The notes under the pieces: generated by a model | The model's database searches: none | Seen by the model: only the letters and a program-made list of their open reading frames with translations | Told to the model about the DNA's origin: nothing | Source of the DNA: Bryobacter sp. CoA8 C33 | Lineage (GTDB): Bacteria > Acidobacteriota > Terriglobia > Bryobacterales > Bryobacteraceae | Direction: 5' to 3' | Assembly: GCA_019931185.1 (NCBI GenBank) | Contig: JAINDK010000009.1 | Span: 1 to 64,000 of the forward strand | DNA length: 64,000 nucleotides | Shown here: positions 9,021-13,290 of the stretch, one piece after another | How the letters are laid out: each line of letters opens with the position of its first letter | Position numbering within the stretch: position 1 is the first letter of the stretch | Position numbers and translations under genes: made by a program

Positions 9021-10388
9021 ATGCTGAGCCGGCGGGATGTGATGGGCTTGCTGCCATTCGCGGCAAGCGGGGCGCGGCGCGCGCCGAATCTGATTCTGAT
9101 TTATGCCGATGACCTGGGCTACGGAGACCTGGGCTGTTATGGGGGACGGATTCGCACGCCGCATCTGGACCGGTTGGCGAAGGAGGGGATGCGGTTCACT
9201 CAATGCCTCTCGGCGAACCCGGTCTGCTCGCCTTCGCGGGCAGCCCTGCTGACCGGACGTTACCCAACACGGGTGAAGATCCCGCGTGTGCTGTTTCCGC
9301 GTGACCGGGAAGGCCTGCCGGAAGACGAGACGACGATCGCCGCGATGCTCAAGCCGCAAGGCTACCGCACACACTGTGTGGGCAAATGGCATCTGGGACA
9401 CCATCCGGAACATCTGCCGACAAGCCGTGGTTTCGATGGCTACTTCGGCATTCCTTATTCGAACGATATGGATCCTCCCGTGCTGCTGCGCAGCGGAAAG
9501 GGCGGGGTTGAAATCGTGGAGCAACGGGCGGCGATGGACCGGCTGGCGGGGCGCTATGCCGAGGAGGCCGTGAAGTTCATCGACAGCGCCAAGGACAGCC
9601 CCTTCTTTCTTTATTTCCCCCACACGTTCCCGCATATTCCCTTGGGGGCGAGCGCGCGGTTTCGCGGTAAGTCCGCGCAGGGTCTTTATGGTGATGTGGT
9701 GGAAGAACTCGACTGGGGCGTGGGGCAGGTGTGGGAGGCCGTCAAACGGCACGGGCTCGACCGCGAGACGCTGATCGTATTTTCCTCGGACAACGGGCCC
9801 TGGTATCAGGGTAGCCCGGGTCCGCTGCGCGGCCGCAAGGGAGCTACGCTCGAGGGCGGAGTGCGCGTGCCGCTGATTGCCCGCATGCCGGGGACGGTGG
9901 CGGCCAATCGTGTCTCGGACGAACTCGTCTCTACGATGGATGTGCTGCCGACCTTTGCGCGCTTGAGCGGGGCGAAGCTGCCGGCGAAGCCGCTCGACGG
10001 AGCAGATCTGCTGCCATTGTTGACCGGGCGCGAGCAGCGGCGGCAGCGGGAAGCCTTGTTGTATTTTGATGGCTGGAACGCCCAGTGCATCCGCGACGGA
10101 AATCTGAAACTGCATGTCGCACGTTACAACTCGCAGGTTTATAGCCCCGCTCCGGCGGCGGGACGCTTGAACTTGCCTCTGCCGAAGCCGGAACTGTATG
10201 ACCTCGCGATTGACCCCAACGAAAGCTACGACATTGCGCCGGAACGTCCGGCCGATGTCGAGAGGCTGCAAAAGAAAATGGAACAGATGATTGCCGGTTT
10301 CCCGGCGGAAGTGCGCGATGCCTGGGCACAGACGCGGGCAAGGCCCACGGCCGGAGACGTGGGGGCTTTTCCGCGGATTGTGCAATAA
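9021..10388 (+). CDS. Secreted-type arylsulfatase (type I, formylglycine-dependent)
   Basis: This 455-residue type I sulfatase hydrolyses sulfate esters. Metal-binding aspartates lie in LIYADDLGYGDLG (Asp30, Asp31). The modification motif CSPSRAALLTGR places Cys69 as the residue converted to formylglycine. Further conserved motifs are VGKWHLG, FFLYFPHTFPH and FSSDNGPWYQG. An N-terminal SRRDVMGLLPFAASGA resembles a short twin-arginine signal. It lies just after a small secreted protein. The natural substrate cannot be read from sequence, and activity needs a formylglycine-generating enzyme elsewhere in the genome. Confidence 0.93.
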   Translation: MLSRRDVMGLLPFAASGARRAPNLILIYADDLGYGDLGCYGGRIRTPHLDRLAKEGMRFTQCLSANPVCSPSRAALLTGRYPTRVKIPRVLFPRDREGLPEDETTIAAMLKPQGYRTHCVGKWHLGHHPEHLPTSRGFDGYFGIPYSNDMDPPVLLRSGKGGVEIVEQRAAMDRLAGRYAEEAVKFIDSAKDSPFFLYFPHTFPHIPLGASARFRGKSAQGLYGDVVEELDWGVGQVWEAVKRHGLDRETLIVFSSDNGPWYQGSPGPLRGRKGATLEGGVRVPLIARMPGTVAANRVSDELVSTMDVLPTFARLSGAKLPAKPLDGADLLPLLTGREQRRQREALLYFDGWNAQCIRDGNLKLHVARYNSQVYSPAPAAGRLNLPLPKPELYDLAIDPNESYDIAPERPADVERLQKKMEQMIAGFPAEVRDAWAQTRARPTAGDVGAFPRIVQ

Positions 10389-10838
10389 CTAGCGTGCGTG
10401 CTGAAGCACCTCGAGTGGGGAGGGCATGCCGCGCTGGCCGAAGCGGATGATGCCTTCCGGGTCGATGAGGTAGACCGTGCGCTTCACAAAGAGACCATGC
10501 GCCTGAAAGAGACGCGCGACTTCCTGTCCCGTATCCACGAGCAGCGGAAATTCGAGGCGGTTCTTGTCGACAAACTTCTTGTGGCTCTCCGCTGAGCCAG
10601 GGTTGACGCCGTAGACCACGGCGTTCTTCGACTTCACGCGATGCCAGTTATCGCGGATGTCGCAGACCTGCTTGGTTCAGCCGGGGGTGTCGTCGGCGGG
10701 GTAGAACACGAGGATGACGTTCTTGCCGCGCAGCTTTTGCAGTTCGACCAGGTTGCCGTCCTGGTCCCGCAGTTTGAAAGGGGGCGCCGGAGATCCGGGT
10801 TTGAGCGGGTCGCTCCAGAGCCATCCGAGTTGTAGCAT
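10389..10838 (-). CDS. bcp: Bcp/PrxQ-type peroxiredoxin with in-frame UGA at the catalytic cysteine (probable selenoprotein)
   Basis: Reading from ATG 10838 to TAG at 10389 gives 149 codons of a Bcp-type thiol peroxidase, the normal family length. One in-frame TGA occurs at 10677-10679, codon 54. The residues around it, FYPADDTPG-[UGA]-TKQVCDIRD, match the family active site TPGCTxxxCxxRD, so UGA replaces the peroxidatic cysteine exactly. The resolving cysteine is Cys59. No frameshift is needed, and conserved motifs lie on both sides (APPFKLRDQDGNLVEL; KRTVYLIDPEGIIRFG). Selenocysteine peroxiredoxins are known in bacteria, for example PrxU of Eubacterium acidaminophilum. The start is preceded by AAGGG and lies 6 bases after the permease stop, suggesting one operon. 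The alternative is a nonsense mutation or base-call error. Confidence 0.82.
10630..10661 (-). promoter_or_regulatory. Candidate bacterial SECIS hairpin downstream of the UGA
   Basis: In the mRNA, 18 bases after the UGA codon ends are GAC, an internal loop, CGCGAU, the loop AACUGGC, AUCGCG, and then GUC. This forms a perfect 6-bp upper stem over a short lower stem, with the apical loop about 27 bases from UGA. Bacterial SECIS elements usually lie about 16-37 bases downstream, so placement fits. The loop has a GG but not in its first two positions, so it is not a textbook match. A second small motif, GC-AGGUCU-GC, at 10662-10671 copies the E. coli fdhF loop but lies very near the UGA. Confidence 0.4.
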
Positions 10839-10844
10839 GCCTGA

Positions 10845-12152
10845 TTATCCCTTACCGAGATAGATGAAGCGGATCAAGAAAAGAGTGGTTAAAACGTAGA
10901 CGAGCCAGCCGATCTGAGATGCCTTGCCACGGAAGAGCTTGAGCAGCGTCCAGGCGATGAAGCCGAAGGCGAGACCGTTGGCGATGCTGAAACTCAGCGG
11001 AATGATGAGAATCGTGAGAAAAGCGGGGATGGCGGATTCGGCATCGTGCCAATTGATTTCGGCGGCATGAGAGATCATGAGGCTGCCGACGAGGATGAGA
11101 GCGGGCGCGGTAGCGGCGGCGGGGATGATGCCCACGACGGGAACAGCGAAAAGAGCGAGCAGAAACAGTAGCCCGGTAACGATGGCCGTAACGCCAGTGC
11201 GCCCGCCGGCGGCGACGCCCGAGGCACTCTCGATGTAGCTAACCACGGTGGAGGTGCCGGTGAGGGCGCCGAACATGGTCGCCAGCGAATCGGTGGTGAG
11301 AATGCGCCCGACACGGGGGATGCGGTGATTCTCATCGAGCAGGCCGGCTTTCTTGCTGACGGCCACGAGGGTGCCGAGATTATCGAAGAGATCGACGAAG
11401 AGGAAAACGAAAATGATCTCGAACAGACCGCGAGCCAGCGCGCCGCTCAGATCGAGTTGCAGTGCCGTGTCGCCGAGCTGAGGCAGGTAAGAGGGTTGCC
11501 ACTTCCACTGGACGACACCCGTGAGCATGGCGGTGGCGCTGACGCCAACGATGCCGAGCAGCATCGCCGCGCGCACCCCCCAGGACATCAGCAGGGCCAT
11601 GAGGATCAGCCCGCCGATGGCGAGTATCGTGTTGGGGGCGCCGAGATCGCCGAGCGTCACCATGGTGGCCGGGTTGGCGACAACGATGCCGGCGTTCTTG
11701 AGCCCGATGAAGGCGATGAAGATGCCGATGCCGACAGCTACGGCGGCATAGAGCTCCGCTGGCATGGCCTCGACGATCTTCTGCCGTAACCCGGTCATGG
11801 TGAGAATCAGGAAGGCGATACCTGAAAAGAAGACCGCGCCGAGCGCCACCTGCCAACTAATGCCCATGCCCTTGACGACGACATAGGTAAAGTAGGCGTT
11901 CAGCCCCATGCCGGGCGCCAGTGCAATCGGATAGCGGGCGAAAGCGCCCATGAGGATGCTGCCAAAGGCAGCGCTGAGGCAGGTGGCGGCGGCGACAGCG
12001 CCAAAGGGCATACCGGTTTCGGCGAGGATCGACGGATTCACGAAGAGAATGTAGGCCATCGTGATAAACGTCGTGGCCCCGGCGAGGATCTCGGTCCGCC
12101 AGTTGGCGCCAAGGGCGGCGAACTCAAAGTAGCGCTCCAGTTGTGCCTTCAT
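10845..12152 (-). CDS. Purine permease of the NCS2/AzgA-like family
   Basis: This protein of about 435 residues has many hydrophobic helices. The family signature TEILAGATTFITMAYILFVNP lies near the N-terminus, and LAPGMGLNAYFTY is the conserved substrate region. FIFLFVDLFDNLGTLV-type and SGVAAGGRTG motifs are also present. It should import adenine, guanine or hypoxanthine by proton symport in the inner membrane. The ATG at 12152 was chosen because family members begin a few residues before the conserved RTE. The longer frame upstream runs into the divergent aroG gene. The peroxiredoxin gene follows after 6 bases. Confidence 0.88.
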   Translation of the reverse strand: MKAQLERYFEFAALGANWRTEILAGATTFITMAYILFVNPSILAETGMPFGAVAAATCLSAAFGSILMGAFARYPIALAPGMGLNAYFTYVVVKGMGISWQVALGAVFFSGIAFLILTMTGLRQKIVEAMPAELYAAVAVGIGIFIAFIGLKNAGIVVANPATMVTLGDLGAPNTILAIGGLILMALLMSWGVRAAMLLGIVGVSATAMLTGVVQWKWQPSYLPQLGDTALQLDLSGALARGLFEIIFVFLFVDLFDNLGTLVAVSKKAGLLDENHRIPRVGRILTTDSLATMFGALTGTSTVVSYIESASGVAAGGRTGVTAIVTGLLFLLALFAVPVVGIIPAAATAPALILVGSLMISHAAEINWHDAESAIPAFLTILIIPLSFSIANGLAFGFIAWTLLKLFRGKASQIGWLVYVLTTLFLIRFIYLGKG

Positions 12153-12237
12153 AAGGAGGAATCTGTCAGGATACACGAGGATGGAGCACCACCTCGAGTT
12201 GGTAAATGAAACCCTAGTAAAATAAAGGCTTAGACGA

Positions 12238-13290
12238 ATGCCATTCCGTACCGACGATGTCCGCATCCGCGGCATCCGTGAACTCACCCCTCCGCTCGAA
12301 GTCCTGCGGGATTTCCAGCCCAGCGAAGAAGATACGCGCCAGATCCATCACACTCGCGAGGCGCTGCACCAGATTATCCACGGCCACGACAAGCGGCTGG
12401 TGGTGGTGGTGGGCCCTTGTTCGATTCATGACACGGAGGCGGCGCTTGAATACGCGGGGCGGCTGCAGGAGATGTCGCGGGCTTATGACGGGCAACTGCT
12501 GACTCTGATGCGCGTCTACTTTGAAAAGCCGCGCACGACGGTGGGTTGGAAGGGGCTGATCAACGATCCTTTTCTCGACGAAAGCTTCAACATCAACGAA
12601 GGCGTGCGGCGGGCGCGCAAGCTGCTGCTCGATCTGCTCAAGATGGGCCTGTTGTCGGCAACTGAGTTCCTCGACATGATCACGCCGCAGTACATCGCCG
12701 ATCTGATCGTATGGGGAGCGATCGGCGCCCGCACCACCGAGAGCCAGAGCCACCGCCAACTGGCAAGTGGGCTTAGCTGTCCCGTGGGCTTCAAGAATGG
12801 CACCGACGGCAATGTGCGCATTGCCATCGACGCCATCCGCGCGGCGCGCGAGACGCATCATTTTCTCAGCGTGACGAAGACCGGCCATACGGCAATTGTC
12901 GAGACGAACGGCAACTCGGATTGCCATGTGATCCTGCGCGGCGGCAAGCTGCCGAATTTCGATGATGAGTCGGTCTCGGGCGCCCTCGATACGCTGCGGG
13001 CGCAGAGGTTGCCCGACCGGCTGATGATTGATTGTTCGCATGCGAATTCGCAGAAACACGCGAGCAATCAGCCGATCGTCGGCGATGCGATTGCCACCCA
13101 GATTGAGGCCGGCCAGGAAGGCATCTTTGGCGTGATGATCGAATCAAACATCGTGGCGGGGCGGCAGGATCTGGTTCCCGGCAAGCCGCTCACCTTTGGT
13201 CAATCGATCACGGATGAGTGTATTGATCTGGCGGCGACCGAGCGCATGCTCGAAAGACTCGCGGAAGCATGTCAAAAGGCGAGAAGCTAG
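12238..13290 (+). CDS. aroG: 3-deoxy-7-phosphoheptulonate (DAHP) synthase, class I
   Basis: This 350-residue enzyme condenses phosphoenolpyruvate with erythrose 4-phosphate, the first step of the shikimate pathway. The sequence follows the E. coli AroF/G/H type throughout: VVVVGPCSIHD, MRVYFEKPRTTVGWKGLIND, GARTTESQSHRQLASGLS, GFKNGTDG, and IDCSHANSQKH with the metal ligands near the C-terminus. The N-terminal arm used for feedback inhibition is present. The last 22 bases overlap the exonuclease III start, which indicates translational coupling. Only 85 bases separate it from the divergent permease, so both promoters lie there. Confidence 0.95.
   Translation: MPFRTDDVRIRGIRELTPPLEVLRDFQPSEEDTRQIHHTREALHQIIHGHDKRLVVVVGPCSIHDTEAALEYAGRLQEMSRAYDGQLLTLMRVYFEKPRTTVGWKGLINDPFLDESFNINEGVRRARKLLLDLLKMGLLSATEFLDMITPQYIADLIVWGAIGARTTESQSHRQLASGLSCPVGFKNGTDGNVRIAIDAIRAARETHHFLSVTKTGHTAIVETNGNSDCHVILRGGKLPNFDDESVSGALDTLRAQRLPDRLMIDCSHANSQKHASNQPIVGDAIATQIEAGQEGIFGVMIESNIVAGRQDLVPGKPLTFGQSITDECIDLAATERMLERLAEACQKARS

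Follow-up and report, generated by a model that had tools for sequence, protein, structure and literature searches.

Peroxiredoxins with selenocysteine (Sec) at the peroxidatic position have been in print since 2005, when a survey of the Sargasso Sea reported 43 such sequences under COG1225 (PMC1088965), which bears out the statement of an earlier note on the DNA studied here that Sec peroxiredoxins occur in some bacteria. Zhang 2006 (PMC1794560) has 12 selenoproteins of the Prx family and 5 events in which Cys became Sec; a later review lists Prx as COG1225 (Bcp) with the motif TxxU (PMC9312934), another also covers TxxU Sec peroxiredoxins (PMC13188914), and both cite the selenoperoxiredoxin PrxU of Eubacterium acidaminophilum as the experimental precedent. 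For Acidobacteria, the accessible text of Zhang 2006 gives 3 selenoprotein families and 4 selenoproteins without naming the families; these four might include a peroxiredoxin (PMC1794560). The deep-Sep study credits one acidobacterium, Occallatibacter, with three known selenoprotein genes (PMC12013277). A literature search combining the lineage with selenoproteins returned, judged from the listings, no description for the lineage considered here.

The gene described below lies in a 64,000-nucleotide stretch of Bryobacter sp. CoA8 C33 (contig JAINDK010000009.1; hereafter, the window). Its product shares with the known TxxU proteins of COG1225 (Bcp)/PF00578 the AhpC/TSA domain, a predicted Sec in place of the peroxidatic Cys in PxxxTxxC and a UGA codon aligned to the Cys of homologues, a likeness that, for the COG1225 members, rests on published descriptions. 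It differs from them in the host, a Bryobacteraceae acidobacterium, in the mixture of Sec and Cys members within one family, in a hairpin loop that falls outside the bacterial SECIS (bSECIS) rule, and in the presence of relatives without a resolving Cys. The TxxU kind is thus already known, and the window protein adds to it a well-supported case in a Bryobacteraceae acidobacterium.

Protein family and predicted fold

With the TGA read through, the product is an AhpC/TSA peroxiredoxin (PF00578, 127.7 bits against a cut-off of 26). The Bcp/PrxQ identity proposed in the earlier note holds in a looser form: the protein is Bcp/PrxQ-like but scores 93.8 bits with the NCBI Bcp profile NF006960, under the curated cut-off of 140. 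With the PrxU profile NF040737 it scores 32.5 bits, far under the cut-off of 270, so that the protein belongs to a different branch from PrxU. Compared with Bcp, the thioredoxin-dependent thiol peroxidase (NF006960, PRK09437), the C(U)-x4-C arrangement and the fold are shared, whereas the score sets the Sec protein apart from its own paralogue, a separate Cys-type Bcp (L201) that passes the same cut-off with 166.4 bits. The Sec enzyme thus shares this genome with another of its type.

The AlphaFold model, computed with Cys in place of Sec, confidently predicts a peroxiredoxin fold (pLDDT 94.8). Its first matches in the PDB are Bcp proteins and further peroxiredoxins, among them Bcp1 and Bcp4 of Sulfolobus and BcpB and AhpE of Mycobacterium, and the Bcp structures 3drn, 3hjp and 5epf are among the first seven. 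A second cysteine five residues after the peroxidatic residue characterizes the E. coli-type Bcp, and Cys59 of the window protein has this spacing. No signal peptide is visible in the 149-residue product.

The reading frame and codon 54

The features of the locus are collected in the table. The frame runs from an ATG to a TAG (10391-10389), and its sole internal stop is the TGA at codon 54, in the context FYPADDTPG-U-TKQVC, with the next Cys at codon 59. The ORF lister retained just an 82-aa ORF starting with GTG (10637-10389), from which the active site is absent. The earlier note is upheld on all these points: it had described a minus-strand peroxiredoxin frame of 149 codons broken by one TGA at the catalytic cysteine, with the second Cys kept five residues on, and had stated that a standard caller would keep only the last 82 codons and lose the active site. 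It had also held that random nonsense would rarely strike this codon, and indeed a single stop placed at random would fall on codon 54 of 149 with a probability of 0.7%.

Features of the Sec peroxiredoxin locus in the window
Feature	Positions	Strand	Basis
Predicted Sec-containing Bcp/PrxQ-like peroxiredoxin, 149 residues, Sec at residue 54	10389..10838	minus	frame, profile, relatives, selection, model
In-frame TGA, predicted Sec codon 54, peroxidatic position of PxxxTxxU	10677..10679	minus	codons of homologues: TGC 78, TGT 11, TGA 21 (110 loci)
Codon of Cys59 (Sec + 5), the candidate resolver	10662..10664	minus	+5 residue is Cys in 16 of 21 Sec loci, 86 of 89 Cys loci
Candidate SECIS hairpin	10629..10662	minus	synonymous conservation in 7 genus members; hairpin stronger than in synonymous shuffles; loop outside the published bSECIS rule
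Upstream membrane-protein ORF, permease-like by look of sequence	10845..12287	minus	ends 6 bases before peroxiredoxin start

The gene is tightly packed, with 6 bases to the upstream ORF and its stop abutting that of a convergent ORF. The latter, on the plus strand and sulfatase-like by the look of its sequence, ends at 10386-10388. A homologue of the permease-like neighbour adjoins the peroxiredoxin gene in all eight genus loci examined. Elsewhere in the window, screening the sequence between gene-like ORFs for further frames that continue through a TGA gave six candidates, judged on the 13 residues around each TGA.

Of the 257 genomes searched in the order, 157 gave a match at E 1e-30; we read 110 loci, which take in all TGA-bearing matches among those listed (21) and part of the listed matches without a stop. 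As the earlier note suggested, relatives were compared at this codon, and every one has either TGA or a Cys codon at the same place: TGC or TGT stands in 89 of the 110 loci, and each of the 21 TGA loci has its single TGA here, a placement beyond chance, with no extra stop in the aligned stretch. The 21 TGA genomes span nine genera. Within the genus of the window, TGA is found in seven of the eight genomes examined; beside the genome studied here these are six MAGs with separate accessions from several sites, and this recurrence makes a base-call error very unlikely. In a phylum-wide search, 78 of 396 genomes had a match at E 1e-25 and, among the matches listed, TGA occurred only in the genome under study; two other genomes in that list show TAA.

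Just before codon 54, Pro-Gly is almost constant in Sec loci and more variable in Cys loci. Pro at -2 is present in 21/21 and Gly at -1 in 20/21 Sec loci, compared with 53/89 and 30/89 Cys loci, respectively. In a 35-row alignment, T51 and C/U54 never vary, and P47 and R120 hardly do. All seven Sec members of the genus retain Cys59. Over the wider set, the residue at +5 is Gly in five of the 21 Sec loci (L048, L049, L051, L052 and L054), and the +5 Cys is missing from three of the 89 Cys loci as well. In L048 and L051 there is no Cys at all in the stretch read, the start codons of which are not fixed, so that within it the predicted Sec would be the sole chalcogen residue besides Met.

Sec machinery and the candidate SECIS

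The selA, selB, selC and selD search that the earlier note had proposed recovered the complete set in the genome: SelA (467 bits), a full-length SelB (354 bits, 616 aa), SelD (351 bits) and a tRNA-Sec with a score of 73.4 bits, over the cut-off, in which ARAGORN reads a tca anticodon. Two of the observations that the earlier note had named as refuting its reading, a genome without Sec machinery and unrelated stops in the aligned part of the relatives, were thus not made. The one exception among the genus members, G046 (98% complete, 4 contigs), carries a TGC gene beside the same permease-like neighbour, and searches of this genome detected neither a tRNA-Sec (E 1e-10) nor a SelD (E 1e-60), nor a full SelB, the top SelB match being EF-Tu and the other three at E 1e-25 covering only parts of the SelB profile. 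Both SelB and tRNA-Sec were found in 17 of the 21 TGA genomes, SelB only in G051 and tRNA-Sec only in G103 and G206; G052 (79% complete) has neither, yet has a SelD. Across the order, SelB is present at E 1e-60 in 206 of the 257 genomes, yet Cys stands in 89 of the 110 loci read; the Sec machinery thus does not predict Sec in this enzyme.

Besides the peroxiredoxin, three more genes of this genome carry, judging by their sequences, UGA in Sec-type contexts, namely, those for SelD, a second peroxiredoxin and a formate dehydrogenase. The selD gene has an in-frame TGA (AAG-U-ASK) followed, 20 nt on, by a strong hairpin with the loop GGU; among the 31 SelD loci of the order that were read (L012 and L133-L162), the codon is TGA in 23, TGC in 7 and TGT in 1. 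The second UGA peroxiredoxin, on contig 124 (L205:1423-1971, minus), has an exported-looking N-terminus, MERRSFLLTTATVSS..., and the site FTGG-U-TKEM, with a strong hairpin, GGAUACCA-GGC-UGGUAUCC, past the UGA; its best-scoring profile is PrxU, at 68 bits, under the cut-off. The formate dehydrogenase alpha chain, on contig 21 (L208:1501-2277, minus), has its UGA in NQSRL-U-HGPTV.

Selection past the TGA is purifying. Pooled over the seven genus members, pN/pS is 0.175 upstream of the TGA and 0.126 downstream of it, the latter value indicating that this part is kept as protein. Synonymous variation is depressed just downstream of the codon: among degenerate codons of conserved residues, 4 of 13 vary at +1 to +16 compared with 75 of 89 elsewhere (p 1.4e-4), and pairwise synonymous change in the genus is 0.14 after the TGA against 0.41 elsewhere, lower in 21 of 21 pairs. 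In two other Sec groups, of three loci each, such a drop is not clear (g54, 0.21 vs 0.27, p 0.29; g62, 0.40 vs 0.44, p 0.42). None of the seven Cys groups tested shows a significant drop, with g65 (3 loci) leaning that way (0.22 vs 0.34).

In the genus, the conserved segment can fold into a stem with a bulged U, whose loop contains the codon for Trp65 (UGG) and starts 26-27 nt past the TGA. In the window gene the stem is CGAC-A-UC-CGCGAU / AUCGCG-U-GA-A-GUCG, and its apical loop, AACUGGC, starts 27 nt past the TGA. Measured against synonymous shuffles, the UGG-loop hairpin has a mean z of -1.53 in the 21 Sec loci and of +0.05 in the 89 Cys loci (p 2e-6), in a test devised post hoc, after the Sec sequences had been viewed, and on loci that are not independent, 7 of the 21 Sec loci being close relatives. 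Counted by genus, the 9 Sec genera differ from the Cys loci at p 0.013. A stricter variant, likewise post hoc, with UGG at +11 (19 Sec and 85 Cys loci) gave -1.39 vs -0.01 (p 1.7e-4), with no hairpin scored in 5 of the 19 Sec loci; the strict and the looser test agree in direction. The hairpin is absent from the Cys gene of G046 (z -0.43). There is little or none of it in the Sec genera g24, g10, g9 and g83, and none in one member of the window's own genus, L020 (z 0.06).

More general measures of structure did not separate the two forms. Downstream of the TGA, folding energy is no lower in Sec loci than in Cys loci, whichever of five segments is compared (p 0.15-0.93). The published rule for bacterial SECIS elements places a hairpin 16-37 nt after the UGA with a G among the first two nucleotides of the loop (PMC13188914, Fig. 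2A legend). The hairpin of the window gene lies at this distance, but AACUGGC has no G at its first or second position, which puts the gene outside the rule as coded. Nor is the rule enriched among Sec loci: 8 of 21 Sec loci conform to it, compared with 62 of 89 Cys loci, and within the Sec genes so do 45% of the other codons. Consensus folding of the genus together with g54 gave no strong common stem, so that g54 does not have the same stem as the genus at the level of single bases. The genus hairpin is a likely, if unproven, SECIS.

Reading of the codon, catalysis and evolution

Placement, conservation and genomic context point to codon 54 being, almost certainly, a Sec codon. The reading that we prefer, with a probability of about 0.94, is that SelA, SelB, SelD and tRNA-Sec of this organism insert Sec at this UGA, steered by the hairpin that lies inside the coding sequence just past it, and that the product is a Bcp/PrxQ-like peroxiredoxin with attack by Sec54 and resolution by Cys59. 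In the peroxiredoxin family, the peroxidatic residue reduces the peroxide, a second Cys resolves the product, and thioredoxin is the likely reductant. By analogy, the Sec54 selenolate would attack the peroxide and become a selenenic acid, Cys59 would resolve the latter into a selenenylsulfide, and thioredoxin or a similar reductant would presumably reopen that bond.

Two other accounts of the TGA do without selenium. The codon could be a nonsense mutation or a sequencing or assembly error in a TGC/TGT gene, making the locus a pseudogene or an artefact; the assembly that holds the gene is indeed a draft of 138 contigs, and one base separates TGC or TGT from TGA. Against this stand the identical TGA in the six other genus genomes and in 14 further genomes of eight other genera, the lack of a second stop in any of the 21 genes as far as they were aligned, and the purifying selection past the TGA, and we regard an error or a dead gene as extremely improbable. 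The UGA could instead be read as another amino acid, such as Trp by near-cognate suppression, or act as a regulated stop with a short N-terminal product. This is difficult to square with the fact that the alternative residue is always Cys in the other 89 loci read, with the complete Sec machinery of the genome, with the coincidence of TGC and missing machinery in G046 and with the three further genes that have UGA in apparent Sec-type contexts; moreover, the 53-residue product would be without the active site. The failure of the published bSECIS features and of folding energy to distinguish Sec loci is what such a reading has in its favour, and we consider it very unlikely.

A different alternative accepts Sec and questions the chemistry, in that peroxide reduction with Cys59 as the resolver might not be the enzyme's main activity; it could be, for example, a 1-Sec peroxidase that uses another thiol, or a thiol-disulfide relay. 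The Sec loci with Gly at +5, two of them without any Cys in the stretch read, lend this some weight, whereas the retention of Cys59 throughout the Sec members of the genus and the conservation of T51, C/U54, P47 and R120 speak for the peroxidase cycle with Sec54 and Cys59; we take the alternative to be unlikely, although it deserves to be kept in mind.

The locus is an example of a gene that loses its catalytic half if UGA is taken for a stop. Furthermore, Sec and Cys versions of one enzyme occur in sister genomes of one family, one of these without a Sec system, so that what a peroxidase gains and loses by using selenium could be studied where little else differs. On a maximum-likelihood phylogeny of the 110 proteins, the Sec label changes at least 9 times, only 3 of these changes being required by well-supported branches; this tree was built from few columns, with Sec entered as Cys, and has many open forks and a bootstrap that is not settled. 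One supported clade (99/83) unites the Sec genes of the genus, the Cys gene of G046 and the three Sec genes of g54, a topology that fits a Sec-to-Cys return in G046.

These patterns suggest a broader scenario, which we put forward tentatively and hold to be somewhat doubtful as a whole. The Bcp-like peroxiredoxin of Bryobacterales may have changed between its Sec and Cys forms on several occasions; a genome that loses the Sec machinery, as in the case of G046, would also revert to Cys and give up the stem of the SECIS. A side branch (G165, G166, G167, G206 and G209) would work with Sec and no resolving Cys, two of its members being apparently Cys-free, and the SECIS of the genus would be built around a nearly invariant Trp codon, with UGG in the loop, outside the published rule. 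One Cys form, L055, is also without the +5 Cys and falls into the same poorly supported branch as the Sec forms that lack it.
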